From the NCBI GenBank assembly GCA_015056625.1, contig SVFY01000003.1:124001-188000 (forward strand): a DNA stretch of 64,000 nucleotides. Direction: 5' to 3'. A model generated the notes under the pieces. That model did no database searches and was not told where the DNA came from. It was given only the letters and a program-made list of their open reading frames with translations. The position numbers and the translations under genes were made by a program. Numbering within the stretch: position 1 is the stretch's first letter; every line of letters starts with the position of its first letter. Source of the DNA: Butyrivibrio sp. (GTDB lineage Bacteria > Bacillota > Clostridia > Lachnospirales > Lachnospiraceae). Below are positions 12,107 to 49,796 of the stretch, one piece after another.

Positions 12107-12136
12107 ATTATACCATATATATGCACACTAAGTCAC
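12107..12136 (-). promoter_or_regulatory. Putative internal promoter upstream of the 11201..12073 GT11 gene
   Basis: Minus strand GTGACT-N18-TATAAT (-10 at 12107..12112) with extended -10 TGG immediately upstream; 9-bp inverted repeat GTGCATATA/TATATGCAC flanks the -10. Confidence 0.65.
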
Positions 12137-14043
12137 TTATGCCTCCCTGGGCCCTCCATCTCATACCACAGCTGGAACATAAGGATATACCAGATTTGTA
12201 TTCTGTAAATGCCTCTGTCTGTGAAATCCCTCCAAATCTTTTCTACAACTTCACAGTCAAGGATTCCTGCTTCCTGGATCTTTCTTTTATCAAGCAGCTC
12301 CTCTGCCCAGCTCCTTAGATCATCCTCAAGAAGCCACTTGGATATAGGAATTGAAAAGCCTTTTTTGGGTCTGTCCATCATCTCTTTTGGAACGTATCTG
12401 TAAAGCACATCCCTTAGTATCCTTTTCCCTGTTTTACCATCCTTCAGATAATCTATTGGCAGACTAAATGCAAACTCGACGACATCTTTATCAAGCATCG
12501 GAACCCTTGTCTCAAGAGAGACTGCCATAGCAGTCCTGTCAACCTTAACAAGAATGTCATCCGGATGATACAAAAGCATGTCCATCAACATCACATTGTG
12601 GTTTACTTCGCTTAGAAAATCTGCTGGAAGATCCATGCATTTGTATTTAGCAGTCCCCTTTTTCAAGGCGATCTTCTTAATGATGGGATCTGTTTCATGC
12701 TCAAATTTATGGAGTTCATATGGAGATGCTGCTCCTAGATACTTTGCTTTTAAATACCTGGTCTCAAGATCTTCTCTACCAGTGATCTCAGTTCCAGTTG
12801 CCATAAGTTCAATCGAAGATAATGGTTTTCTTAAAGGATATGGTATCCTCTTTATCTTGTTCCATACACGACTGACAGATTCATAGGATTTGTACCCGCA
12901 AAAGAGTTCATCGCCGCCATCACCGGAAAGTGATACTGTCACATGGTCTCTTGTCATTTTACTTACAAGATAGGTTGGAATCTGAGAAGAGTCCGCAAAA
13001 GGTTCTCCAAATATAAACGGTAACTTCGGGATAACTGACTTTGCATCTGCTTCGGAAATATAGAGCTCAGTGTGTTCTGTGCCAAGATGTCTTGCTATCT
13101 CTTTTGCATAGACAGCCTCGTTAAACTTTTCATCCTCCATTCCAATAGTAAAAGTCTTTACTCTTCCTGGAGAAATACTCTGCATCAAAGATACAACGGT
13201 GGAGCTGTCTATCCCCGCAGAAAGAAATGCTCCCAGAGGAACATCCGCTATCATCTGTCCTCTTATGGAGTCTTTAAGAAGTCTCTCAAGTTCAGATGAA
13301 GCTTCTTCAAAAGAGCCTTTAAAAACTGATGCCTGCCCCTTCTTTGCCACATCCTTCATGGACCAGTAGGTGGTCTTATCATTTTCTAAAGTCCCCACAT
13401 TTACAGTAAGAATGGTACCTGGCTCAAGCTTGAAAATACCCTTATAGATTGAATATGGCGCCGGAATATATCCATCCTCAAAATATATATCAAGTACATC
13501 TTCGTCAATTGGATTATCAAAACCATCAATGGCGCTTATGCAGCCTATATCAGATGCAAACACAAAAGCTCCGCAGGCATTGCCATAATACAAAGGCTTT
13601 TCTCCAACCCTGTCCCTTGCAAGAGTCACTGTGTTTTTTTCCTTGTCATAAACAGCTATGGCAAACATTCCCTTGCAGCCAGATAGAGCTTCTTCCATTC
13701 CATATCTCTCGATTGCTTCAAGGAGAATCTCCGTATCTGATGTGCTGCGAAACTGAAGATTCCCGTTGGTGGTTGCAAGAAGCCTTTCTTTAACACTACC
13801 TGCATTGTATATCTCACCATTGTAGACCATAACAGACCTTCCACTGGCAGAAACAAATGGCTGAGCCCCATTCTTAGAAAGGTCAACAATAGCAAGGCGC
13901 CTGTGTCCAAGCGCCACTTTTCTGTCTTTATCAATATATATACCGTCATCATCCGGGCCACGATGCGCCATTCTGTCATTCATTCTGGAAACGGCTGCTG
14001 ATGCATCGCCCTTATATCCTATAAGTCCAGCTATTCCGCACAT
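12133..14043 (-). CDS. asnB: Asparagine synthase-like glutamine amidotransferase (AsnB family)
   Basis: MCGIAGLIGYKG (Cys2 nucleophile), MAHRGPDDDGIY, VFNGEIYN-like VYNGEIYNA, LSAGIDSSTVVS, LSGDGGDELFCGY. Confidence 0.92.
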   Translation of the reverse strand: MCGIAGLIGYKGDASAAVSRMNDRMAHRGPDDDGIYIDKDRKVALGHRRLAIVDLSKNGAQPFVSASGRSVMVYNGEIYNAGSVKERLLATTNGNLQFRSTSDTEILLEAIERYGMEEALSGCKGMFAIAVYDKEKNTVTLARDRVGEKPLYYGNACGAFVFASDIGCISAIDGFDNPIDEDVLDIYFEDGYIPAPYSIYKGIFKLEPGTILTVNVGTLENDKTTYWSMKDVAKKGQASVFKGSFEEASSELERLLKDSIRGQMIADVPLGAFLSAGIDSSTVVSLMQSISPGRVKTFTIGMEDEKFNEAVYAKEIARHLGTEHTELYISEADAKSVIPKLPFIFGEPFADSSQIPTYLVSKMTRDHVTVSLSGDGGDELFCGYKSYESVSRVWNKIKRIPYPLRKPLSSIELMATGTEITGREDLETRYLKAKYLGAASPYELHKFEHETDPIIKKIALKKGTAKYKCMDLPADFLSEVNHNVMLMDMLLYHPDDILVKVDRTAMAVSLETRVPMLDKDVVEFAFSLPIDYLKDGKTGKRILRDVLYRYVPKEMMDRPKKGFSIPISKWLLEDDLRSWAEELLDKRKIQEAGILDCEVVEKIWRDFTDRGIYRIQIWYILMFQLWYEMEGPGRHK

Positions 14044-17874: not shown

Positions 17875-19818
17875 TCACTCCATGTAGTAATTATACCATT
17901 GCTGGAAGATGTAGAATGACCATGCAATCTTGCTAAAGTTTGCGCCTGTTGCCGGGCCGGCATCTCCCTTGGCCACGTAATCACTTATAAACCTTGATAC
18001 ATACTCAGGGTCAAATACCCCCTGCTTCTTAAGATAAGACGTACTGCTGTAATCAAGGAGCGCTTCCTTTAAAGGACCGCGAAGCCATGCATCCATCGGA
18101 ACACCAAAGCCTGTCTTTGGGCGCTCAAGCATCTGCCTTGGAATATAGTCATAGGCGATGTCCTTTAGAATGTGCTTCTTGTCCCCTTTGTAGTACTTAA
18201 ACTTATGGGGAATCCTGAAGGAATACTCCATGACCTCAGTATCCATAATTGGGCATCTGTTTTCCAGCGAATACTTCATGGATGCCCTGTCCATCTTCAC
18301 AAGGATATCCTCAGGAAGGTAGGTATCCATATCAAGAAGCATTCTCTTTACCTGAAAATCCCTTGTGGGATAAAGGCTCTCTATTGGATACAGGACCGGA
18401 GCTTCGTTTATTCCAAGATTAAAATCGGTATTAATGTAATCAAGAGCGTGAACTGGTACATCTAATGTCTCTTTTCCTGAAATAAAGGCATGGGAGGCCT
18501 TAACATAACCTTCAGATACAAGCTGCGTTTTAGTCTCAATATCTCTGTTTCCGGCTATGACCTTGACTCTAAAGGGCATACGGTCAATCAGTCTTCTTCC
18601 GCCAACGCTGATCTGTCCGACAGCATTGACGATCGCTCCGGGAATCTCAAGTCTCTGAGCCTGCCATACATTGTCATAGACATTGTAGCCGCAAAAGAAC
18701 TCATCTCCACCATCACCTGACAAAGCTACAGTAACGTCTTTCTTTGCCAGCTTACTCACCAGCATTGAAGGGATCTCTGAGTTGTCTGCAAAAGGCTCAT
18801 CATAGTACTGAGGTATGCTGGCCACCAGATCAAACATCTCTTTTTCAGTGATGTACAGCTCTGTATGGTCACATCCGAGGTAGTTTGCTATCTCCTTTGC
18901 ATACTCAGCCTCATTGTAGCTGGGAACATCAAAGCCTATACAAAAAGTCTTTACAGGCTCATCAGAAAGCTCCTGCGCAATAGCTGTAACAAGAGATGAA
19001 TCGTATCCACCAGACAAAAATGTTCCAAGTGGCACATCAGCGATCATACGGGATGCAACGCTGTTTTTAAGTCTGAGCTTAAGGCCTTCCTTGGCCTCTT
19101 CATAATTATTTACCGGATCCTTGGACTTTTCTTTATAGACTTGCCTTATATCCCAGTACTTCCACTTTTTGATCTCGCCGTCTTTAAACCGAAGGACTGA
19201 TCCCGCCTCTAATTTATACACATCTGTAAATATTGTCTCAGGAGCGCTGATGTACTGATTGTATAAGTATCTGGGAAGGAGCTGTCTTCTGATCTCCCCC
19301 TTAAATCCAGGACATTTCATGATAGGTTTGAGCTCTGAACCAAAGATGATATTTCCGCCATCAATCCAATAGAAGAGTGGCTTTTTACCAATCCTGTCGC
19401 GAATGAGGAATACTTCGCCACTTTCCCTGTCATAGAGGGCTATGGCAAACATTCCATGGATATGGTCAACCATGTCAATGCCCCATTTAAGATATGCAGC
19501 AATTATCACCTCAGTATCACAGTTTGTCTTAAACTCGTAATCACTTATTTCCTCTTTAAGCTCGAGAAAGTTATATATCTCACCATTAAATATAACGGAT
19601 ACTCTGCCATTTTCTGAATGCATAGGCTGATGTCCAAGAGGAGACAGATCCAGGATCGCAAGTCTTCTCTGCGCAAACCCTATGAAGTAGTCATTTGCGC
19701 CTTGATATATCTCGACACCTGCATCATCAGGACCTCTGTGGTACATGGTGTCATTCATGATACGAAGCGCTTCTTCAGTTATTCTTTTTTTCGATACATA
19801 TCCGCAGATTCCGCACAT
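17875..19818 (-). CDS. asnB: Asparagine synthase-like glutamine amidotransferase (AsnB family), second copy
   Basis: MCGICGYVSKKRI, MYHRGPDDAGV, IFNGEIYNF, LSGGYDSSLVTA, LSGDGGDEFFCGYNVY. Confidence 0.93.
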   Translation of the reverse strand: MCGICGYVSKKRITEEALRIMNDTMYHRGPDDAGVEIYQGANDYFIGFAQRRLAILDLSPLGHQPMHSENGRVSVIFNGEIYNFLELKEEISDYEFKTNCDTEVIIAAYLKWGIDMVDHIHGMFAIALYDRESGEVFLIRDRIGKKPLFYWIDGGNIIFGSELKPIMKCPGFKGEIRRQLLPRYLYNQYISAPETIFTDVYKLEAGSVLRFKDGEIKKWKYWDIRQVYKEKSKDPVNNYEEAKEGLKLRLKNSVASRMIADVPLGTFLSGGYDSSLVTAIAQELSDEPVKTFCIGFDVPSYNEAEYAKEIANYLGCDHTELYITEKEMFDLVASIPQYYDEPFADNSEIPSMLVSKLAKKDVTVALSGDGGDEFFCGYNVYDNVWQAQRLEIPGAIVNAVGQISVGGRRLIDRMPFRVKVIAGNRDIETKTQLVSEGYVKASHAFISGKETLDVPVHALDYINTDFNLGINEAPVLYPIESLYPTRDFQVKRMLLDMDTYLPEDILVKMDRASMKYSLENRCPIMDTEVMEYSFRIPHKFKYYKGDKKHILKDIAYDYIPRQMLERPKTGFGVPMDAWLRGPLKEALLDYSSTSYLKKQGVFDPEYVSRFISDYVAKGDAGPATGANFSKIAWSFYIFQQWYNYYME

Positions 19819-26721: not shown

Positions 26722-27831
26722 TTATTTGATAATCTCTTTTATCTCATTAATATACGTCAATATTATACTACGCCTGTCAAATTTCTGCTCCACATGGTTT
26801 CTGGCAGCTTTTCCCATGTTTGCCCGCTTTTGGAGCGACATTCCCATGAATTCTGAAATAGCTTTGTACAATGCTTCTTTGCTTCGGGGTTCACACAGAA
26901 TGCCAGATACATCCTTTTCAACAATCTCTTTACAACCACTTATATCTGTTGTAATGACAGGTCTTCCTGTAGCAGCAGCCTCCATGAGCACATTGCTCAT
27001 GCCCTCATGATAGGAAGGATGTACGATGGCATCAGCCTCTTTTATATATGGATGTATGTCCTTCTGATAGGGGATAGACTTAAAATACCCTGATGCTTCC
27101 GCCTCTTTTACCTGGTCCTCGAAATCCTCTTCAGAGTACCCGACAGCAGCAAAGGAAACCTTGTCTCCATACTCTTCATGGGCCTTTTTAGCCGCATACA
27201 AAAGCTCCTCTGTACCCTTTTCTTTCATAAGGCGCCCAATATAAAGGAATCTTGTGACATCGTCCTTATGTCCCGGATACTCTTCAAACCTGTGCTTATC
27301 AAGGTTTACTCCAGAGCCGTTTACTACAACAGCTTTTTTTCCTCTGATGCCATGTTTTTCGAAGACCTGATGATTATATTCATTCTGGAAAAAGAGACAT
27401 CTGCAACCCTTAAGTGATACCTTGTACATGGCAACTATGAGTTTAAGCAGAATCCCGCCCCTCTCGAAGGTAGAACCAAGGCCTGTTACCGTTGAGATAT
27501 AAGGTACTCCAAGGAGCCTGCTGGCAAAGCCTCCATAAATATTGGGCTTTATGGTATAGGTTATGACTATGTCAGGTCTCTCAGTCTTTAATAACCTCTT
27601 ATAAGCGCCAAAAAGAGCCATATCCTGTACAGGATTGACTCCGCGCCTGTTTATGTCAGTATGTATTACTCTGCAGCCCTCGTCCGTAAGCTCTTTTACC
27701 TTAAGGTCATCCGGAAGGCTCAGCACAACTTCAAAGCCTTCCTCCATAAGCCCTGTTAAAAGCTCATTCCTAAAATCAAAGAGCCCGCTGGATGAGTTGG
27801 CCAGTATCAACGCTTTTGGCATACTCTCCAC
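26722..27831 (-). CDS. Glycosyltransferase family 4 (PglA-like)
   Basis: KALILANSSSGLFDFRNELLTGLMEEGFEV...VITYTIKPNIYGGFASRLLGVPYISTVTGLGSTFE...HPSYHEGMSNVLMEAAATGRPVITTDISGCKEIV. Confidence 0.88.
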   Translation of the reverse strand: MESMPKALILANSSSGLFDFRNELLTGLMEEGFEVVLSLPDDLKVKELTDEGCRVIHTDINRRGVNPVQDMALFGAYKRLLKTERPDIVITYTIKPNIYGGFASRLLGVPYISTVTGLGSTFERGGILLKLIVAMYKVSLKGCRCLFFQNEYNHQVFEKHGIRGKKAVVVNGSGVNLDKHRFEEYPGHKDDVTRFLYIGRLMKEKGTEELLYAAKKAHEEYGDKVSFAAVGYSEEDFEDQVKEAEASGYFKSIPYQKDIHPYIKEADAIVHPSYHEGMSNVLMEAAATGRPVITTDISGCKEIVEKDVSGILCEPRSKEALYKAISEFMGMSLQKRANMGKAARNHVEQKFDRRSIILTYINEIKEIIK

Positions 27832-27834
27832 CTT

Positions 27835-28824
27835 TTACTTTGCAAGCTTGTCCTCAGCCATAATGCAAAGCTCGTTATATTTCATCATATAGATACCTTC
27901 CTGGTAATCTCCGATCCTGACCGGATTCTCATAACCATTCAGGTTATTGATGATGCACCTTGGGAAATTGACTCCGCAGGCGTAGGCATGAGGATATCCT
28001 CCGCCAAACCTTGGATTGACCTCTGACAGATACCAGGTATCTGTTGCATTATCGTAGAACAGGTCAATGTCGATCATTCCTCTGTAGCCAACAGTTTCAA
28101 CAAAAGATACGATCTGCTCAAAGAGCCTTTCATCCTTCACAGAAACGGATTTATCTGTCTCCCCGGCTCTCATCTTGATCTTCTCTTTTAAGAAGATATC
28201 TGTGCACTTGCCGCTTATGAGATCGATGTAAACATCAGCGCCATACTCCTGTCCCTTCATGTACTCCTGGATGATCAGGCCATCATGATCATGGAAAAGA
28301 GCTACCAGCATCTCTTTTGACTCTACTGCGTTTATGTTTATTGATGCACTGCCATTTCTTGGCTTAACAAAGACAGGATAGTCAACTTCTCCTTCGGAAA
28401 GAGCTGTCTCAAAAGCCTCCATGGTAAGATAACACTTTGCAGTAGGAATTCCCAGCTTAACAAGCATTTCATACATCCTGTACTTATCAAGGCTGGTCTC
28501 GCAAAGCTCATAGGAGGAAACTATTGGAGTTACGCCAATTTCGGTAAACCTGTCCGCATTGTCTGCAAGAAGAGAAAGCTCAGGGTCTATCAGACTGAAA
28601 ACTCCCTTGATGTTGTTCTTTTTACAGATGCCCAGGATCTCATCGATATAGAATGGATCCTTGATCTTTGGTACGATGATAGCCTCATCAGCATCATAGA
28701 TAGCCGGTCCTATATTGGAACAGTCTGTGGCAAATACCTTGCCGTTATTGGCAAGTTCCTGCTTAAATGCCTGTACAACCTTGTTTCTGGTTCCTGCGCT
28801 CAAAATAAGAATATTGGTTGCCAT
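27835..28824 (-). CDS. ATP-grasp ligase domain protein
   Basis: ILILSAGTRNKVVQAFKQEL...YPVFVKPRNGSASININAVESKEML...LIIQEYMKGQEYGADVYID...MIDIDLFYDNATDTWYLSEVNPRFGGGYPHAYACGVNFP. Confidence 0.88.
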   Translation of the reverse strand: MATNILILSAGTRNKVVQAFKQELANNGKVFATDCSNIGPAIYDADEAIIVPKIKDPFYIDEILGICKKNNIKGVFSLIDPELSLLADNADRFTEIGVTPIVSSYELCETSLDKYRMYEMLVKLGIPTAKCYLTMEAFETALSEGEVDYPVFVKPRNGSASININAVESKEMLVALFHDHDGLIIQEYMKGQEYGADVYIDLISGKCTDIFLKEKIKMRAGETDKSVSVKDERLFEQIVSFVETVGYRGMIDIDLFYDNATDTWYLSEVNPRFGGGYPHAYACGVNFPRCIINNLNGYENPVRIGDYQEGIYMMKYNELCIMAEDKLAK

Positions 28825-28828
28825 ATGT

Positions 28829-29770
28829 TCATCTCCTCATTTTGTCTAGTTCATCAAAAAACAGCGGCGTTCCTCCTGTGTGGATAAAGAGGATCTTTTT
28901 GTCTGAAAGATACTTGCGTCTGATGTACTGCTCCATACCCCAGAAGGCTTTTCCGGTATAAGTGCAATCCAGGGGCATTCCGTAGTTTACAAGGGCTTTT
29001 TCTATGGTCTTTGTTATCTCTTTGTTGTCCCTTCCATATCCATCGCCTGTATACTCATCTAAAAAGATAGTGTTTTCCTGGATCACATCCTCTGCGATCT
29101 GCCCTCTGCCGGGTTCTTCCTTCAGATAATCCCTTATGCTTTCAATAACAACATCTCTGCCTCTTGGATTTTTCCTTGCGATACTGATACCGATTATCTT
29201 TTTATCATCACCTTCAAGAAGCTGTCCGCACACAAGCCCAGCCTGAGTTGTTCCGGTTCCTGACGCCAAAAAGATATAGTCAAAGCTTATGCTGTTTTCT
29301 TTTTCAAATTCCTTTATCTCTCGGTAGCACTGGACATAGGCTCTTGTGCCTATATTGCCATGGCCTCCGCCCATGATAAAGTACGGATCATGACCAGCCT
29401 TCCTGAGCTCCTCAATCTTGGCATCAATAGTGCCCTTAACTTCATCCACAGGAACTGTTATGATCTCAGCTCCAAGGATATCCATAAGCTTGCTGTTATA
29501 AGTAGGATCACTGACTTCACTTGGTCCTATGATAAGACACTTAAGTCCGCGCTGGGCAGCCATATTGGCGATAACTCTGCAATGATTTGAATGGCTGCTG
29601 CCATAGGTGACCACATAGTCAGCTCCAAGCCTGTCTATCTCATCAAAAAACAGGACCGCTTTTCTTGCTTTGTTTCCGCCAAAAGAGTAGGGGATCATGT
29701 CCTCTCTTTTTACATAAAGGTCCTTGCAAAAGTCGCTATTAAGTTTGTATACAGGCGTTCTTACTTCCAT
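28829..29770 (-). CDS. PLP-dependent fold-type II enzyme, ACC deaminase / D-cysteine desulfhydrase family
   Basis: DLYVKREDMIPYSFGGNKARKAVLF...TYGSSHSNHCRVIANMAAQRG...FLASGTGTTQAGLVCGQ. Confidence 0.87.
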   Translation of the reverse strand: MEVRTPVYKLNSDFCKDLYVKREDMIPYSFGGNKARKAVLFFDEIDRLGADYVVTYGSSHSNHCRVIANMAAQRGLKCLIIGPSEVSDPTYNSKLMDILGAEIITVPVDEVKGTIDAKIEELRKAGHDPYFIMGGGHGNIGTRAYVQCYREIKEFEKENSISFDYIFLASGTGTTQAGLVCGQLLEGDDKKIIGISIARKNPRGRDVVIESIRDYLKEEPGRGQIAEDVIQENTIFLDEYTGDGYGRDNKEITKTIEKALVNYGMPLDCTYTGKAFWGMEQYIRRKYLSDKKILFIHTGGTPLFFDELDKMRR

Positions 29771-29776
29771 TAGACC

Positions 29777-30406
29777 TCAGTCCTTTGAAGATGTAGCTTT
29801 CCTGTACTCATCCAGGTCCGGCAGCGCATTTAATGCAACTCCGTCATGGGTAAGTACAGCCTTTACAGTATCTATAATGACCTTGACATCTGTAAGAAAC
29901 GTCAGATGCTCAACATAATATACGTCGTATTCAAATTTCTTTTCCCAGGAGATGGCATTCCTTCCATGGGCCTGGGCATAGCCTGTAAGTCCTGGGCGAA
30001 CGCTGTGGCGAAGTCTCTCCCTCTCGGTGTAGTAGGGAAGATATTTTACCAAAAGAGGTCTTGGTCCAATAAAGCTCATATCACCCTTTAGAATATTGAA
30101 AAACTCAGGAAGTTCGTCAAGGCTTGTTGCCCTAAGCTTTTTCCCGAAGGCGGTAAGCCTGACTTCATCCGGCAAAAGCTCTCCGTTTTCATCCCTCTCA
30201 TCAGTCATGGAACGGAACTTGTACATGCCAAATATCTTTTCATCCTTGCCTGGGCGCTGCTGCTTAAACAGCACAGGGCTTCCAAGCTTTATCCTTACAA
30301 GGACAAACAGGATCAGATACAGCCAGGAAAACAGTATTATCACAAAAAGTGACAGTACTATGTCCAAAAGTCTTTTTATGTACTTGGAATAAATTGTATT
30401 CTTCAT
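29777..30406 (-). CDS. Polyprenyl-phosphate sugar-1-phosphate transferase (PglC-like)
   Basis: YIKRLLDIVLSLFVIILFSWLYLIL...GSPVLFKQQRPGKDEKIFGMYKFRSMTDERDENG...ATSLDELPEFFNILKGDMSFIGPRPLLV...RPGLTGYAQ. Confidence 0.93.
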   Translation of the reverse strand: MKNTIYSKYIKRLLDIVLSLFVIILFSWLYLILFVLVRIKLGSPVLFKQQRPGKDEKIFGMYKFRSMTDERDENGELLPDEVRLTAFGKKLRATSLDELPEFFNILKGDMSFIGPRPLLVKYLPYYTERERLRHSVRPGLTGYAQAHGRNAISWEKKFEYDVYYVEHLTFLTDVKVIIDTVKAVLTHDGVALNALPDLDEYRKATSSKD

Positions 30407-30424: not shown

Positions 30425-31696
30425 TTATTCAAAACACTTCTTGATAGCTGCGATCACTATATCCTGCTGCTCAGGAGTCATCTTGTTGTCACTTGGAAGG
30501 CAAAGGCCCCTGGTAAAGATATCCATTCCCACATCAGTGATAGCGCCTTCATCAATATAGGCGTTACTTCTTGCCCTTCCGTTTCCATCCTCTGTGATAA
30601 AAGGATTCATGCGGTAGATAGGCTGCATGTGCATTGGCTTCCAGATAGGTCTTCCCTCTGCATTGATGGCTGTGATCGCATCAAGGATCTCTGTAGGGCA
30701 GCTCTTACCGGGCTCTGACACATATAAAACATCCTTCTCGCCCCTTACCTGCTTGCACATTGCATCTTTATCTATGAGCATGCATGAAAGCCAGAAGTTA
30801 GGCTCTGATTTTTTCTCGTCATATGGATTCATTGAAACAGGAAGATCCTTGAAGCCTTCCTTGTATCTGTTGTAGATAGCTTTTTTCTGAGCGATGTGCT
30901 CTTCAAGGTGGGGAAGCTGTCCTCTTACAACACCAGCAATAACGTTACTCATTCGGTAGTTAAAGCCCATCTCCTCATGCTGATACCAGGGTGCATCTTC
31001 CCTGCTCTGAGTTGACCATTTTCTGATCTTGTCTGCGTCCTCAAGGGAGTTTGTCAGGAGCATTCCCCCTGCTGAGCCTGTTATGATCTTATTTCCGTTA
31101 AAAGAAATAACTCCGATATCTCCAAAAAGTCCTGTCTGCTTACCTTCATAGGTTGCGCCAAAGGACTCAGCGGCATCCTCTACAATAAGGGCTCCATGCC
31201 TGTCACAGACCTCTCTTATATCAGCGATCTTGCCTGGGGTTCCGTAAAGGTGAGCAACTACAACAAGCTTGACCTCAGGATATATCTCAAAGGCCTTCTC
31301 AAGAGCCTTGGGATTCATGTTCCAGGTGTCAGCCTCTGTGTCGATAAATACTGCCTCTCCGCCTTCGTAAGCAACAGGGTTTACTGTAGCATCGAAAGTC
31401 ATGTCAGAGCAGAATACCTTCCTGCCCTCCAGGGTTCCATGAGCGGTCCTGGGCTGACCATAGAGCTTTTCCCCTGCAAGTCTGATGGCAAGGTGAAGGG
31501 CTGCTGTTCCGGAAGAAAGAGCCACAGCAGCTTTACATCCGATCTTTTCTGCAACCGCTCTCTCAGACTCATTTATATTTTTTCCAACTGTAGACATCCA
31601 GTTGGTGTCATAGGCTTCCTGAATGTACTTTATTTCCTCACCATGCATTGTTGGTGAAGAAAGGTACAGTTTCTTTTCAAATGGTTTAATTTCCAT
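30425..31696 (-). CDS. DegT/DnrJ/EryC1/StrS aminotransferase (PglE-like)
   Basis: KKLYLSSPTMHGEEIKYIQEAYDTNWMSTVGKNINESE...ALSSGTAALHLAIRLAG...VEDAAESFGATYEGKQTGLFGDIGVISFNGNKIITGSAGGMLL. Confidence 0.92.
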   Translation of the reverse strand: MEIKPFEKKLYLSSPTMHGEEIKYIQEAYDTNWMSTVGKNINESERAVAEKIGCKAAVALSSGTAALHLAIRLAGEKLYGQPRTAHGTLEGRKVFCSDMTFDATVNPVAYEGGEAVFIDTEADTWNMNPKALEKAFEIYPEVKLVVVAHLYGTPGKIADIREVCDRHGALIVEDAAESFGATYEGKQTGLFGDIGVISFNGNKIITGSAGGMLLTNSLEDADKIRKWSTQSREDAPWYQHEEMGFNYRMSNVIAGVVRGQLPHLEEHIAQKKAIYNRYKEGFKDLPVSMNPYDEKKSEPNFWLSCMLIDKDAMCKQVRGEKDVLYVSEPGKSCPTEILDAITAINAEGRPIWKPMHMQPIYRMNPFITEDGNGRARSNAYIDEGAITDVGMDIFTRGLCLPSDNKMTPEQQDIVIAAIKKCFE

Positions 31697-33623
31697 TGAT
31701 ATCCTCCGCGGTCTTCTGAAGGGCCTCTCTTCTCTCTCTTGTCATTGTATATCTGTGTACATCTGGATGATAGGTCTCAACAATCTCTTTCACCAGATCT
31801 CTGATCTTTGGAGATTCCTCTTTTGCAGCCTCATTGAGCTTTTCAAGCTGTGAAAAGAATCTCATCTCGTCCATCTCGATTGGTTTTCCGATGTGGATCA
31901 TCTTGTTGGCTGTATCCTGGAGTCCCTCCTCGTCCATGAGCATCTCCTCATAGAGCTTCTCCCCGGGACGAAGGCCGGTGAACTCAATCCTTATGTCCTC
32001 TCCAACCTTGTAACCTGAAAGCTTTATCAGGTTCTCTGCAAGATCAAGGATCTTAACAGGCTCACCCATATCAAGGACAAATATCTCTCCGCCCTTGGCA
32101 AAGGCTCCAGCCTGCAGTACCAGCGATACCGCTTCTGAAATGGTCATGAAGTACCTGATGATCTCAGGATCTGTTACTGTAACCGGTCCGCCTGCAGCTA
32201 TCTGCTTTTTGAAAAGAGGGATAACTGAGCCATTGGATCCAAGTACATTGCCAAATCTGACAGCCACAAATTCTGTGTCATAGTGCTTGTTGAAGGTCTG
32301 GATGATCATCTCACAGATCCTCTTGCTGGCACCCATGATATTTGTTGGGTTAACTGCCTTGTCTGTGGATATCATTACAAACTTCTTACAGCCATTAGTA
32401 GCTGCTGCCATAGCGGTCTTCCAGGTACCAAATACATTGTTCTTGATAGCCTCGTTAGGGCTGTCTTCCATGAGAGGCACATGCTTGTGGGCTGCTGCAT
32501 GGTAGACAATGTCTGGCTTATATTTTTCAAAAATATTGTTGATACGAACTGTATTTCTGACTGATGCTATAAGAACCACCAGGTCCAGATCAGGGTACTT
32601 TTGCTTTAATTCCTGCTGTATCTCATAAGCGTTGTTTTCATAAATATCAAGAATGATAAGGCGCTTAGGATTATGACCTGCGATCTGTCTGCAGAGCTCA
32701 GAGCCAATGGATCCGCCGCCACCTGTAACCAGGATGGTCTTGCCACTTACATATCCTGCGATGGAATCAATGTCTACAGTAATAGGATCTCTTCCAAGAA
32801 GGTCCTCTACCTCTACGTCGCGAAGACGTGATACGTTTACCTCACCATTTACCAGCTGATACATTCCAGGAAGGGAACGGAGCTTACAGTTGGTGTTCTT
32901 ACAGATCTCCAGGATCTTTTTAAGCTCCTGCCTGGACACTGAAGGCATGGCAACTATGATCTCGTCGATGTCGTAAAGATCAGCGCACTCAACGATCTTG
33001 TCTCTTCCGCCAACTACGCGGATTCCCTGGATATACTTGCCCCACTTGTTGGTATCATCATCAATGATGCACTTGATGGACATGGTGGAGAAGTTACTTG
33101 TTATGATGTCCTTAATGATGATATTTGCTGCCTCTCCCGCACCAATTATCATCACCGCTTTACTGTTGTTCTTGTTTACAGCCTGATTCTTTTTACTCCT
33201 GAAAAACCTGTAGGAAAACCTGCTGACGAAGATCGCTGTTATCAGAAGGAAGGTGTACAGGAAATAATAACTTTGAGGAACAGGCTGGGTGTGGGATTTA
33301 AAAAACTGAAGTCCAATGGCGTTGCTCACTCCTGAGATAACGCACGCCATGACCAGATTCTGCATCTCCCGCTCTCCTGCATATGCCCAGAGACTGTCAT
33401 AGAGCTTGAACAGGTAAAACACAGCTACGGTAAGTGCTATGTTTATAGGCAAAAAAGTAGTTACCGGATTTAAAAAGTAGGATGGGATCTCATCAAGACT
33501 AAACTCATACCTCATGAGCACTGCCACATAGCTTGCCATGATTATGCTTATGATGTCATAGATGATAAGACCGGTCCTTCTATATAGTTTTGCAAAGTTA
33601 AATGGTTCTTTTTTCTTATTCAT
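31686..33623 (-). CDS. Membrane-anchored nucleoside-diphosphate sugar 4,6-dehydratase (PglF/CapD/WbpM family)
   Basis: N-terminal TM bundle; VMIIGAGEAANIIIKDI; ILVTGGGGSIGSELCRQI; HAAAHKHVPLMEDSPNEAIKNNVFGT; STDKAVNPTNIMGASKR. Confidence 0.94.
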   Translation of the reverse strand: MNKKKEPFNFAKLYRRTGLIIYDIISIIMASYVAVLMRYEFSLDEIPSYFLNPVTTFLPINIALTVAVFYLFKLYDSLWAYAGEREMQNLVMACVISGVSNAIGLQFFKSHTQPVPQSYYFLYTFLLITAIFVSRFSYRFFRSKKNQAVNKNNSKAVMIIGAGEAANIIIKDIITSNFSTMSIKCIIDDDTNKWGKYIQGIRVVGGRDKIVECADLYDIDEIIVAMPSVSRQELKKILEICKNTNCKLRSLPGMYQLVNGEVNVSRLRDVEVEDLLGRDPITVDIDSIAGYVSGKTILVTGGGGSIGSELCRQIAGHNPKRLIILDIYENNAYEIQQELKQKYPDLDLVVLIASVRNTVRINNIFEKYKPDIVYHAAAHKHVPLMEDSPNEAIKNNVFGTWKTAMAAATNGCKKFVMISTDKAVNPTNIMGASKRICEMIIQTFNKHYDTEFVAVRFGNVLGSNGSVIPLFKKQIAAGGPVTVTDPEIIRYFMTISEAVSLVLQAGAFAKGGEIFVLDMGEPVKILDLAENLIKLSGYKVGEDIRIEFTGLRPGEKLYEEMLMDEEGLQDTANKMIHIGKPIEMDEMRFFSQLEKLNEAAKEESPKIRDLVKEIVETYHPDVHRYTMTRERREALQKTAEDINGN

Positions 33624-38889: not shown

Positions 38890-39426
38890 TTAGGAAAAAG
38901 TCTTTTTCATCAATATCATATCATCTTTCTGACCGTCACTGCACTGAACCTCAGGCAGAAAAGCGCATCTCTCAAAGCCGGCATTCTCATAGCTCTTTAT
39001 CGCACTTATATTTCGGACAAAGACCCTGAGGATCAGCTCTTTGAGGTGGATCCTTGTATTGGCATAGTCTGTCATCAAAAGAGCTGCTTCATTGCCATAG
39101 CCCTTTCCATTTGCATCGTCCTCTCCGATGAAAACTCCGTACTCTGCAGATCCGGATACTCTATCGATATCCCTAAGATATACGCTTCCTACAGGTCGTC
39201 CATCTCTGCTCTTTTCACATATGATAAACTGTATGACCTTCCCTGTATCCAGCATGGTGCGCTTCCAGTTCTGCTGACCTTCAAGGGTAAAGGGCTCTCT
39301 GTAAATGAAGTTTTCTCTGACTCTGCTGTTATTTCTCCACTTCACGATAAGAGGAAAGTCACTTTCTTCAATGAGCCTTAAGCCGATAAGCTCACCTTCG
39401 ATCTCATATTGTCTGTTACTCATCAT
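38890..39426 (-). CDS. GNAT-family N-acetyltransferase
   Basis: GLRLIEESDFPLIVKWRNNSRVRENFIYREPFT...GVFIGEDDANGKGYGNEAALLMTDYAN...VRNISAIKSYENAGFER. Confidence 0.88.
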   Translation of the reverse strand: MMSNRQYEIEGELIGLRLIEESDFPLIVKWRNNSRVRENFIYREPFTLEGQQNWKRTMLDTGKVIQFIICEKSRDGRPVGSVYLRDIDRVSGSAEYGVFIGEDDANGKGYGNEAALLMTDYANTRIHLKELILRVFVRNISAIKSYENAGFERCAFLPEVQCSDGQKDDMILMKKTFS

Positions 39427-41261: not shown

Positions 41262-42398
41262 TCAGTTAAATTTGTAGTACTCCTTAATTCTCATGACTAC
41301 TTCATCAAGATCATCATTTGTAAGTTTATAATACATAGGAAGGCGAAGCAGTCTCTCGCTTTCTTTTGTAGTATATTTGTCCTCTCCTCTAAACTCACTG
41401 TATTTGACACCTGCCTGTGATGAGTGGAGTGGAACGTAATGAGAAGCAGGAAGGATATCGTTGCTTGTAAGGTATTTAATAAGTCCCTGTCTCTCCTCGA
41501 AATCCTTGCACTTGATATAGAACATATGGGCATTGTGAACACATTCCTTTGGAACATAAGGAAGTTCGATAAGCCCCTTCTCCTGTAAAGGCCTTAAAGC
41601 CTCCATGTATCTGTTGTAGTGATCTAACCTGTCGCTGTTTATCTCATCCGCCATCTGAAGCTGAGCATAGAGGTAAGCTGCGTTCATATCACTTGGAAGG
41701 AATGATGATCCAGGCATTATCCAACTGTACTTATCAACCTTACCAAGCTTGTAGAGAGTTCTGTTTGTGCCCTTCTCACGAATGATGATGGCGTTATCTA
41801 CGTAGGTCTCATCTCTGAGCAAAAGAGCTCCACCCTCGCCCATACTGTAGTTCTTGGTCTCATGGAAACTGTAGTTACCAAAATCTCCGATGGCTCCAAG
41901 GGCCTTTCCCTTGTAGGTTGCCATAAGGCCCTGAGCTGCATCCTCTATAACAAGGAGGTTATGTCTCCTTGCGATATCCATGATGGTATCCATCTCACAG
42001 CCAACTCCGGCATAGTGAACAGGCACGATAGCCCTTGTCTTGGGGGTGATAGCCTGCTCTATCAGGTTCTCATCTATGTTCATGGTGTCAGGTCTGATAT
42101 CAACAAATACTACCTTGGCACCTCTAAGTACAAACGCATTGGCAGTTGAAACGAAGGTGTAGGAAGGCATGATAACCTCATCCCCCTCCTTGATATCTGC
42201 CAGGATCGCTGCCATCTCAGTAGCATGAGTGCAGGATGTTGTCAAAAGAGCTTTTGTACAGCCTGTCCTTTTTTCAATCCACTCATTATCAAGTGCAGTG
42301 AATTTACCATCACCACAGATCTTCTGTGCTTCAACGCACTCTTTTATGTATTCAAATTCGTTCCCTGTATAGGGTGGTACATTAAAATTTATTCGCAT
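41262..42398 (-). CDS. rffA: dTDP-4-amino-4,6-dideoxygalactose transaminase (RffA/WecE-like)
   Basis: EVIMPSYTFVSTANAFVLRGAKVVFVDIRPDTMNIDENLIEQAITPKTRAIVPVHYAGVGCEMDTIM...SFHETKNYSMGEGGALL...IREKGTNR...GEDKYTTKESERLLRLPM, closely resembling remembered E. coli RffA. Confidence 0.94.
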   Translation of the reverse strand: MRINFNVPPYTGNEFEYIKECVEAQKICGDGKFTALDNEWIEKRTGCTKALLTTSCTHATEMAAILADIKEGDEVIMPSYTFVSTANAFVLRGAKVVFVDIRPDTMNIDENLIEQAITPKTRAIVPVHYAGVGCEMDTIMDIARRHNLLVIEDAAQGLMATYKGKALGAIGDFGNYSFHETKNYSMGEGGALLLRDETYVDNAIIIREKGTNRTLYKLGKVDKYSWIMPGSSFLPSDMNAAYLYAQLQMADEINSDRLDHYNRYMEALRPLQEKGLIELPYVPKECVHNAHMFYIKCKDFEERQGLIKYLTSNDILPASHYVPLHSSQAGVKYSEFRGEDKYTTKESERLLRLPMYYKLTNDDLDEVVMRIKEYYKFN

Positions 42399-48735: not shown

Positions 48736-49746
48736 TTAGTGATCGACAGCCTCTGAAAGTCTGTTTCTGATCTCTTCTACGCTCATCCACTGAGTGTTGT
48801 TTCCAGAGCTGTAGTAGAAACCATCCGGAACCTTCTTGCCTGAAGGATCAGGAGCCTGGCACTCATTAAATATTACCTGCGGATATACGATAAAGTGCTT
48901 GTCAAATTCGTAAGTAAATGGAGCATCCTCAGTTGTTACCATGATCTCGTCAAGCTTCTCGCCTGGACGGATCCCGACTTCAACTGTCTTAACACCCGGG
49001 CACATAGCTTCTGCAAGGTCCTTGACGTGGAAAGAAGGGATCTTACTGATAAATGTCTCTCCGCCGTTAGCCTCTTTAAGTGCCTTAAGAACCAGTTCAA
49101 CGCCCTCTGGAAGGCTGATCCAGAATCTGGTCATACGGTAATCGGTAATAGGAAGCTCTTTTTCACCCTTCTCAATAAGGCTCTTAAAGAAAGGAATTAT
49201 GGATCCGCGGCTGCCTGCCACATTGCCATAACGGACAATTGAGAAATTGATATCCTTGGCACCAGCATATGCGTTAGCTGCAATAAAGAGCTTGTCTGAA
49301 ACCATCTTGGTCGCACCATAGAGGTTAACAGGATTAACAGCCTTGTCTGTAGAAAGAGCTACAACTCTCTTTACACCTGTGTTAAGGGCTGCATTGATAA
49401 CGCTCTGGGCACCTGTGATATTGGTTTTGATGGCCTCATCAGGGTTGTATTCACATGCAGGAACCTGCTTAAGGGCTGCTGCATGAACGATATAGTCTAC
49501 ATTCTCACAGGCTCTTTCAAGTCTTGCGCCGTCTCTTACGTCTCCGATAAAGAAACGCATCTTGTCAGCATTATCTCTATAAATCTTCTCGTTGGACATT
49601 GTGAACTGCTTGTACTCATCTCTTGAATAGATGATGATCTTCTTGGGGTTGTAGTGCTCAAGGACATACTGTGTGAAGCTGTGTCCAAAAGAGCCTGTTC
49701 CTCCAGTCACGAGAATAGTTTTGTTATCAAGCATTGATCTTTCCAT
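48736..49746 (-). CDS. pseB: UDP-GlcNAc 4,6-dehydratase (inverting), PseB-like (start corrected from 49764)
   Basis: LDNKTILVTGGTGSFGHSFTQYVLEHYNPKKIIIYSRDEYKQFTM...HAAALKQVPACEYNPDEAIKTNITGAQSVI...STDKAVNPVNLYGATKMVSDKL; GGAGAT RBS before ATG 49746. Confidence 0.92.
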   Translation of the reverse strand: MERSMLDNKTILVTGGTGSFGHSFTQYVLEHYNPKKIIIYSRDEYKQFTMSNEKIYRDNADKMRFFIGDVRDGARLERACENVDYIVHAAALKQVPACEYNPDEAIKTNITGAQSVINAALNTGVKRVVALSTDKAVNPVNLYGATKMVSDKLFIAANAYAGAKDINFSIVRYGNVAGSRGSIIPFFKSLIEKGEKELPITDYRMTRFWISLPEGVELVLKALKEANGGETFISKIPSFHVKDLAEAMCPGVKTVEVGIRPGEKLDEIMVTTEDAPFTYEFDKHFIVYPQVIFNECQAPDPSGKKVPDGFYYSSGNNTQWMSVEEIRNRLSEAVDH

Positions 49747-49796
49747 TTTAAATCTCCATATCATTATTAGGCTTACGCAGAGTCTTTAACTAACCA

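Follow-up and report, generated by a model that had tools for sequence, protein, structure and literature searches.

The window, a stretch of 64,000 nucleotides from a rumen Butyrivibrio genome, carries on the minus strand, from 33.6 down to 26.7 kb, six genes in the order dehydratase, 4-aminotransferase, phosphoglycosyltransferase (PGT), PLP enzyme, ATP-grasp ligase and GT4 glycosyltransferase. Order and gene families are those given in a preliminary description of the locus, and all genes lie where it placed them. The first gene (31686..33623) encodes a PglF/EpsC-type membrane UDP-HexNAc 4,6-dehydratase of 645 aa (PF02719, Polysacc_synt_2, 409 bits, and PF13727), which scores 194 bits against the PseB model, under the cut-off of 407.75. 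It is followed by a PglE/LegC-like 4-aminotransferase of the DegT family (30425..31696, 423 aa; PF01041, 253 bits; TIGR04181 LegC, 295.8 bits, under the cut-off of 420) and by a PglC-like PGT (29777..30406, 209 aa; PF02397, Bac_transf, 205 bits). Next come a fold-type II PLP enzyme of the ACC deaminase/D-cysteine desulfhydrase fold (28829..29770, 313 aa; PF00291, PALP, 118.9 bits), a predicted ligase of the PylC/PRK12767 type with PylC-like_N and ATP-grasp domains (27835..28824, 329 aa), and a PglA-like GT4 glycosyltransferase predicted to add the second sugar (26722..27831; PF00534, 107.6 bits). TviB-like and TviC-like genes follow the GT4 gene, just downstream of the cassette. The order of the cassette is not due to chance, because it recurs in independent genomes.

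Other genes of the glycan cluster suggest a second 4-amino sugar: a WecE-type aminotransferase (41262-42398, over cut-off), a PseB-type dehydratase (48736-49764) and a PseH-like GNAT acetyltransferase on the minus strand (38890..39426; PF13302; TIGR03585 PseH, 67.3 bits, under the cut-off of 93.1). Two asparagine-synthase-type amidotransferases are encoded inside the cluster, at 12133-14043 and 17875-19818.

Comparison with known pathways

PglF- and PglE-type enzymes produce a UDP-4-amino sugar. In the Campylobacter Pgl system (PglF/E/D/C/A) dehydratase, aminotransferase, PGT and GT4 have, by family, roles equal to those in the window, but here an ATP-grasp gene stands for PglD, and a PLP gene is inserted. 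No hexapeptide (PF00132) protein is encoded in the window, in line with the lack of PglD reported earlier. PglD_N (PF17836), the mark of a Pgl diNAcBac pathway, was not found in the genome of origin, which is 85% complete. The five hexapeptide proteins of this genome are, as read from their sequences, of the maltose/galactoside O-acetyltransferase, serine acetyltransferase, GlgC/GlgD and GlmU-like types. A PglD encoded elsewhere, which would weaken the proposed substitution, is also missing from most relatives carrying the PLP gene: PglD_N is absent from 9 of 13 such Butyrivibrio genomes, including 4 at 99% completeness, and in the remaining 4 resides outside the cassette locus. None of 56 Butyrivibrio stretches has a PglD gene between PGT and GT4.

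The closest precedent is Neisseria PglB2, made of a PGT and an ATP-grasp domain, which yields a glyceramido sugar (GATDH pathway; PMC11130364, PMC6959607). In both systems a 4,6-dehydratase and a 4-aminotransferase come first, and PGT plus ATP-grasp stand where an acetyltransferase would be expected. ATP-grasp genes are linked to PGT, 4,6-dehydratase and 4-aminotransferase genes in the window as in most Butyrivibrio loci, and the parallel already drawn with PglB2 is a good one, the PGT and ATP-grasp genes being close together. The likeness is one of gene context and published description. Unlike in the PglB2 fusion, PGT and ATP-grasp are separate genes in the window, and the PLP gene lies between them. 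The PglB2 product is a glyceramide, and the cited passages of PMC11130364 and PMC6959607 describe no PLP partner. No paper on a PLP–ATP-grasp sugar module was found in the literature searched.

The PLP enzyme and the ATP-grasp ligase

The PLP protein has the PALP domain, the catalytic lysine and the fold of fold-type II PLP enzymes. K34, S61-N62, Y245 and Y271 are kept. Its predicted model has the 7ysl/7ysk and 4d8 entries as best matches (TMq 0.81–0.88), which supports an ordinary D-cysteine desulfhydrase-type fold. Fold and catalytic residues are shared with D-cysteine desulfhydrase, ACC deaminase and CuyA, but the enzyme forms part of a clade of its own, has an ATP-grasp partner, and scores below all curated cut-offs: 178.9 bits against D-cysteine desulfhydrase TIGR01275 (cut-off 289.4), 146.8 against PRK03910, also D-cysteine desulfhydrase (429), and 142.5 against ACC deaminase TIGR01274 (392). 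The Tyr-Glu pair found near the C-terminus of ACC deaminase is missing, as Thr replaces Glu (YTGK, vs YEGK in the Rhizobium enzyme). In a tree with a small outgroup (four sequences and L151), ATP-grasp-linked PLP enzymes, that of the window included, make one clade (support 100/99) that excludes annotated desulfhydrases and an ACC deaminase. Its members keep a YTGK-like motif, the SN segment and the catalytic Lys, and nearly all retain the tyrosine of the GY motif. The subfamily is uncharacterised, and is otherwise known by scores below cut-off against families that include D-cysteine desulfhydrase, cysteate sulfo-lyase and ACC deaminase; a partner, a pathway slot and a probable acceptor can now be proposed for it.

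The ATP-grasp protein scores 528 bits against NF009406 (PRK12767-type; cut-off 271), a family for which NCBIfam offers no name more specific than "carbamoyl phosphate synthase-like". It matches PDB 2pn1, an Exiguobacterium ATP-grasp, by sequence (E=4e-97, 47% identity) as by fold of the predicted model (TMq 0.89), which supports an ordinary 2pn1-like fold. The title of 2pn1, "carbamoylphosphate synthase large subunit", is a sequence-based name only. The L-amino acid ligases BL00235 and RizA are ATP-grasp enzymes forming amides, as proposed for the window protein, but this is of the PylC/PRK12767 type, unlike them.

The loop MRAGETDKSVS of the window protein aligns with a GETD loop in 2pn1. GETD is found in 31 of 34 PLP-partnered ATP-grasps, and is kept even at 30–35% identity to the window protein. 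The 12 ATP-grasps partnered by a HAD phosphatase all feature R[AS]GE[VI] instead. Among partnerless proteins, 23 (type B, see below) have IGGANK and 11 (type A') GETD. A single clade (support 89/89) holds the HAD-partnered ATP-grasps; those partnered by PLP are scattered across the opposite side of the tree, where several sub-branches lack PLP, and two divergent ATP-grasps (L132, L133) fall outside both parts. The correlation of loop and partner partly reflects descent, although GETD persists, as noted, at low identity. The loop may contact the donor acid; loop motif and partner gene together make a testable sequence rule for predicting the group that an ATP-grasp adds to amino sugars.

The PGT–GT4 interval in Butyrivibrio and the pair in other bacteria

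With the PGT as anchor, 61 Butyrivibrio genomes were surveyed and 56 stretches typed. An ATP-grasp gene was found in the PGT–GT4 region in 52 of 56 loci, nearly always between the two genes, and the view that it occupies the PglD slot is thereby upheld. An orthologue of the aminotransferase resides in 58 of 61 genomes. The slot is filled in four ways: by the window-type ATP-grasp with PLP (kind A), by the same type without PLP (kind A'), by a partnerless ATP-grasp about 40% identical (kind B), and by an ATP-grasp about 30% identical, with a HAD phosphatase fused or alongside (kind C). Whole genomes of the genus sample were searched to verify where PLP is absent. Kind A' ATP-grasps are up to 97% identical to that of the window (L095), so the ligase can do without the PLP gene. 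ATP-grasps fused to or near HAD phosphatases (L085, L109, L110, L112–L115; L078; L138–L141) were observed in Butyrivibrio, Priestia, Segatella, Ensifer and Labrenzia, in glycan loci in all; the phosphatase may mark phospho-acid donors, e.g. phosphoglycerate. Long open frames hinted at PGT–ATP-grasp fusions in the genus, but on inspection turned out to be PGT–GT4 and ATP-grasp–HAD fusions, and no PGT–ATP-grasp fusion was found in the genus sample. One-chain PGT–GT4 fusions occur in L102, L112 and L115.

Changes of the PLP label (presence or absence) were counted on trees of the 33 Butyrivibrio loci having all six genes. One change suffices on the PGT tree, vs 6 for ATP-grasp, 7 for aminotransferase and dehydratase, 8 for GT4 and 9 for UGD. 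Among GETD-type loci alone the counts are 1 (PGT) vs 5–7 (other genes of the locus), and in a wider set including other genera, 3 (PGT) vs 8 (ATP-grasp). The ATP-grasp and PGT genes are equally distant from the PLP gene, so closeness alone does not explain the coupling. Poor recombination across divergent PGT alleles could account for part of it. Since PLP presence tracks the PGT lineage in Butyrivibrio, most simply, the PGT probably recognises a UDP-sugar with a PLP-dependent structure.

Outside the genus, 397 Lachnospiraceae genomes were searched at a threshold for PLP homologues (E<=1e-55) set before neighbourhoods were seen. All 19 homologues not from the genome of origin are fused to an ATP-grasp, next to one or no more than a few genes away: 8 lie by a PRK12767-type ATP-grasp, 4 have a ligase-type ATP-grasp nearby, 7 are single chains of about 700 aa. 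The order ATP-grasp, then PLP was confirmed by Pfam in L134 and the related L035, where the ATP-grasp half contains the Pfam C-terminal domain of L-amino-acid ligases. Six further matches came from a phylum-wide sample; the pair is present in five (L146–L150), while in L151 the PLP gene lies at the contig start and no ATP-grasp was found. No PLP homologue was found in phages at E<=1e-20. The PLP enzyme had been described as a dedicated partner of the ATP-grasp, and this linkage bears it out; nor was the pair seen outside glycan loci among the module loci examined. The idea of a two-gene module holds as far as recurrent pairing goes, but PLP is one of several partner choices at the slot (PLP, HAD, none), and outside Butyrivibrio a GNAT often joins the pair. 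GNAT is fused to PLP in L034 and L116, and an ATP-grasp–GNAT fusion adjoins PLP in L130. An E. coli plasmid carries the series aminotransferase, GNAT, PLP, ATP-grasp, GT, with rfbA and a dTDP-glucose dehydratase gene; a Sphingobium plasmid the series PGT, PLP, GNAT, ATP-grasp, aminotransferase, with polysaccharide export genes. In E. coli, 4 of 5426 genomes have small plasmids with these O-antigen-like clusters (L136, NZ_LR890610.1, and three others), and transposase genes lie near their aminotransferase, GNAT, PLP and ATP-grasp genes. In Butyrivibrio, GNAT was considered as a PLP-specific partner and ruled out, as the protein encoded at 38890-39426 is present in 57 of 61 genomes, whether or not they have PLP.

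Proposed pathway and alternative readings

We infer chemical steps, acceptor, acid and order of steps from gene order, recurrent pairing, fusions, catalytic residues, clade structure, and the correlations of loop with partner and PGT with PLP. Dehydratase and aminotransferase would make a UDP-2-acetamido-4-amino-4,6-dideoxyhexose. In place of acetylation by PglD, the ATP-grasp would convert an amino acid to its acyl phosphate and couple it to the 4-amine through an amide bond. The PLP enzyme would work on a free alpha-amino acid, making or tailoring the acid used by the ligase, most likely an uncommon amino acid of the alanine/serine type, D-configured or beta-modified. A matching PGT would then load undecaprenyl phosphate with the acylated phospho-sugar, and the GT4 extend the lipid-linked sugar. 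The pair thus probably makes an unusual amino acid and adds it to the amino sugar before the surface glycan is started; that PLP follows PGT is expected if the UDP-sugar already bears the group by the time it reaches the PGT. Against the scheme stand the near-identical ATP-grasps in loci devoid of PLP, which imply that the acid is available otherwise, or that the ligase takes two acids. Most reactions known for the fold of the PLP enzyme break amino acids down, which also speaks against it, as does the lack of an aminotransferase gene in the stretch of two module loci, L029 and L030. We hold this amide-ligation scheme, in which the PLP enzyme supplies or modifies the acid, to be somewhat better than an even bet, and the earlier interpretation is partly supported.

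Among alternatives, it is unlikely that the cluster GNAT acetylates the 4-amine, the ATP-grasp having another acceptor, as if it amidated a TviB/TviC-like uronic acid with ammonia or an amino acid given by the PLP enzyme. The PseH-like GNAT at 38890-39426, conserved as noted in nearly all genomes, and the TviB/TviC-like genes directly downstream fit this arrangement, but the GNAT may serve the WecE-type branch, whose aminotransferase scores 602.8 bits vs a cut-off of 375. Amidation of a uronate by the ATP-grasp is less likely because most module loci outside the genus include an aminotransferase gene but few one for a UDP-sugar dehydrogenase, and because the window has its own two asparagine-synthase-type genes.

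We give similarly little weight to a PLP enzyme acting after the ligase, epimerising or eliminating on the aminoacyl group bound to the UDP-sugar, with a common amino acid as ligase substrate. This order of events would account for a change of PGT allele between loci with PLP and loci lacking it, although their ATP-grasps are nearly identical. The S-N-H segment, which binds the substrate carboxylate in ACC deaminase and D-cysteine desulfhydrase, is however largely kept in the PLP enzymes, and suggests a free amino acid as substrate.

Less probable still is a ligase that, as in the GATDH pathway of Neisseria, adds a hydroxy or phospho acid, with the PLP gene having another role. Same-slot relatives fused to or beside HAD phosphatases would suit a phospho-acid donor, but their ATP-grasps cluster apart in the tree and carry another loop motif, and ATP-grasp–PLP fusions exist. 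Fold and active-site residues of the PLP enzyme are identical in kind to those of an ordinary D-cysteine desulfhydrase; that it is one, present by coincidence, is very hard to reconcile with its own clade, the consistent ATP-grasp linkage and scores under every curated desulfhydrase and ACC deaminase cut-off, the more so as a second, 36% identical homologue in the genome (L135, C28) lies beside cysteine-synthase-like and amino-acid ABC transporter genes, an ordinary desulfhydrase context.

Beyond the amide-ligation scheme favoured here for the window, it is nearly an even chance that a new dedicated PLP subfamily feeds a non-standard amino acid to the ATP-grasp, and that several phyla decorate 4-amino sugars via a swappable PLP/HAD donor module read by the PGT.

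Two further features mark related loci. In L033 (7191-10005) a second ATP-grasp gene and a gene for a BCCT (betaine-type) transporter lie between PGT and PLP. A gene encoding c. 350 aa, whose start resembles, by eye, an AAA-type ATPase, is found just upstream of the PGT gene in L064–L067, L088, L098 and L113.
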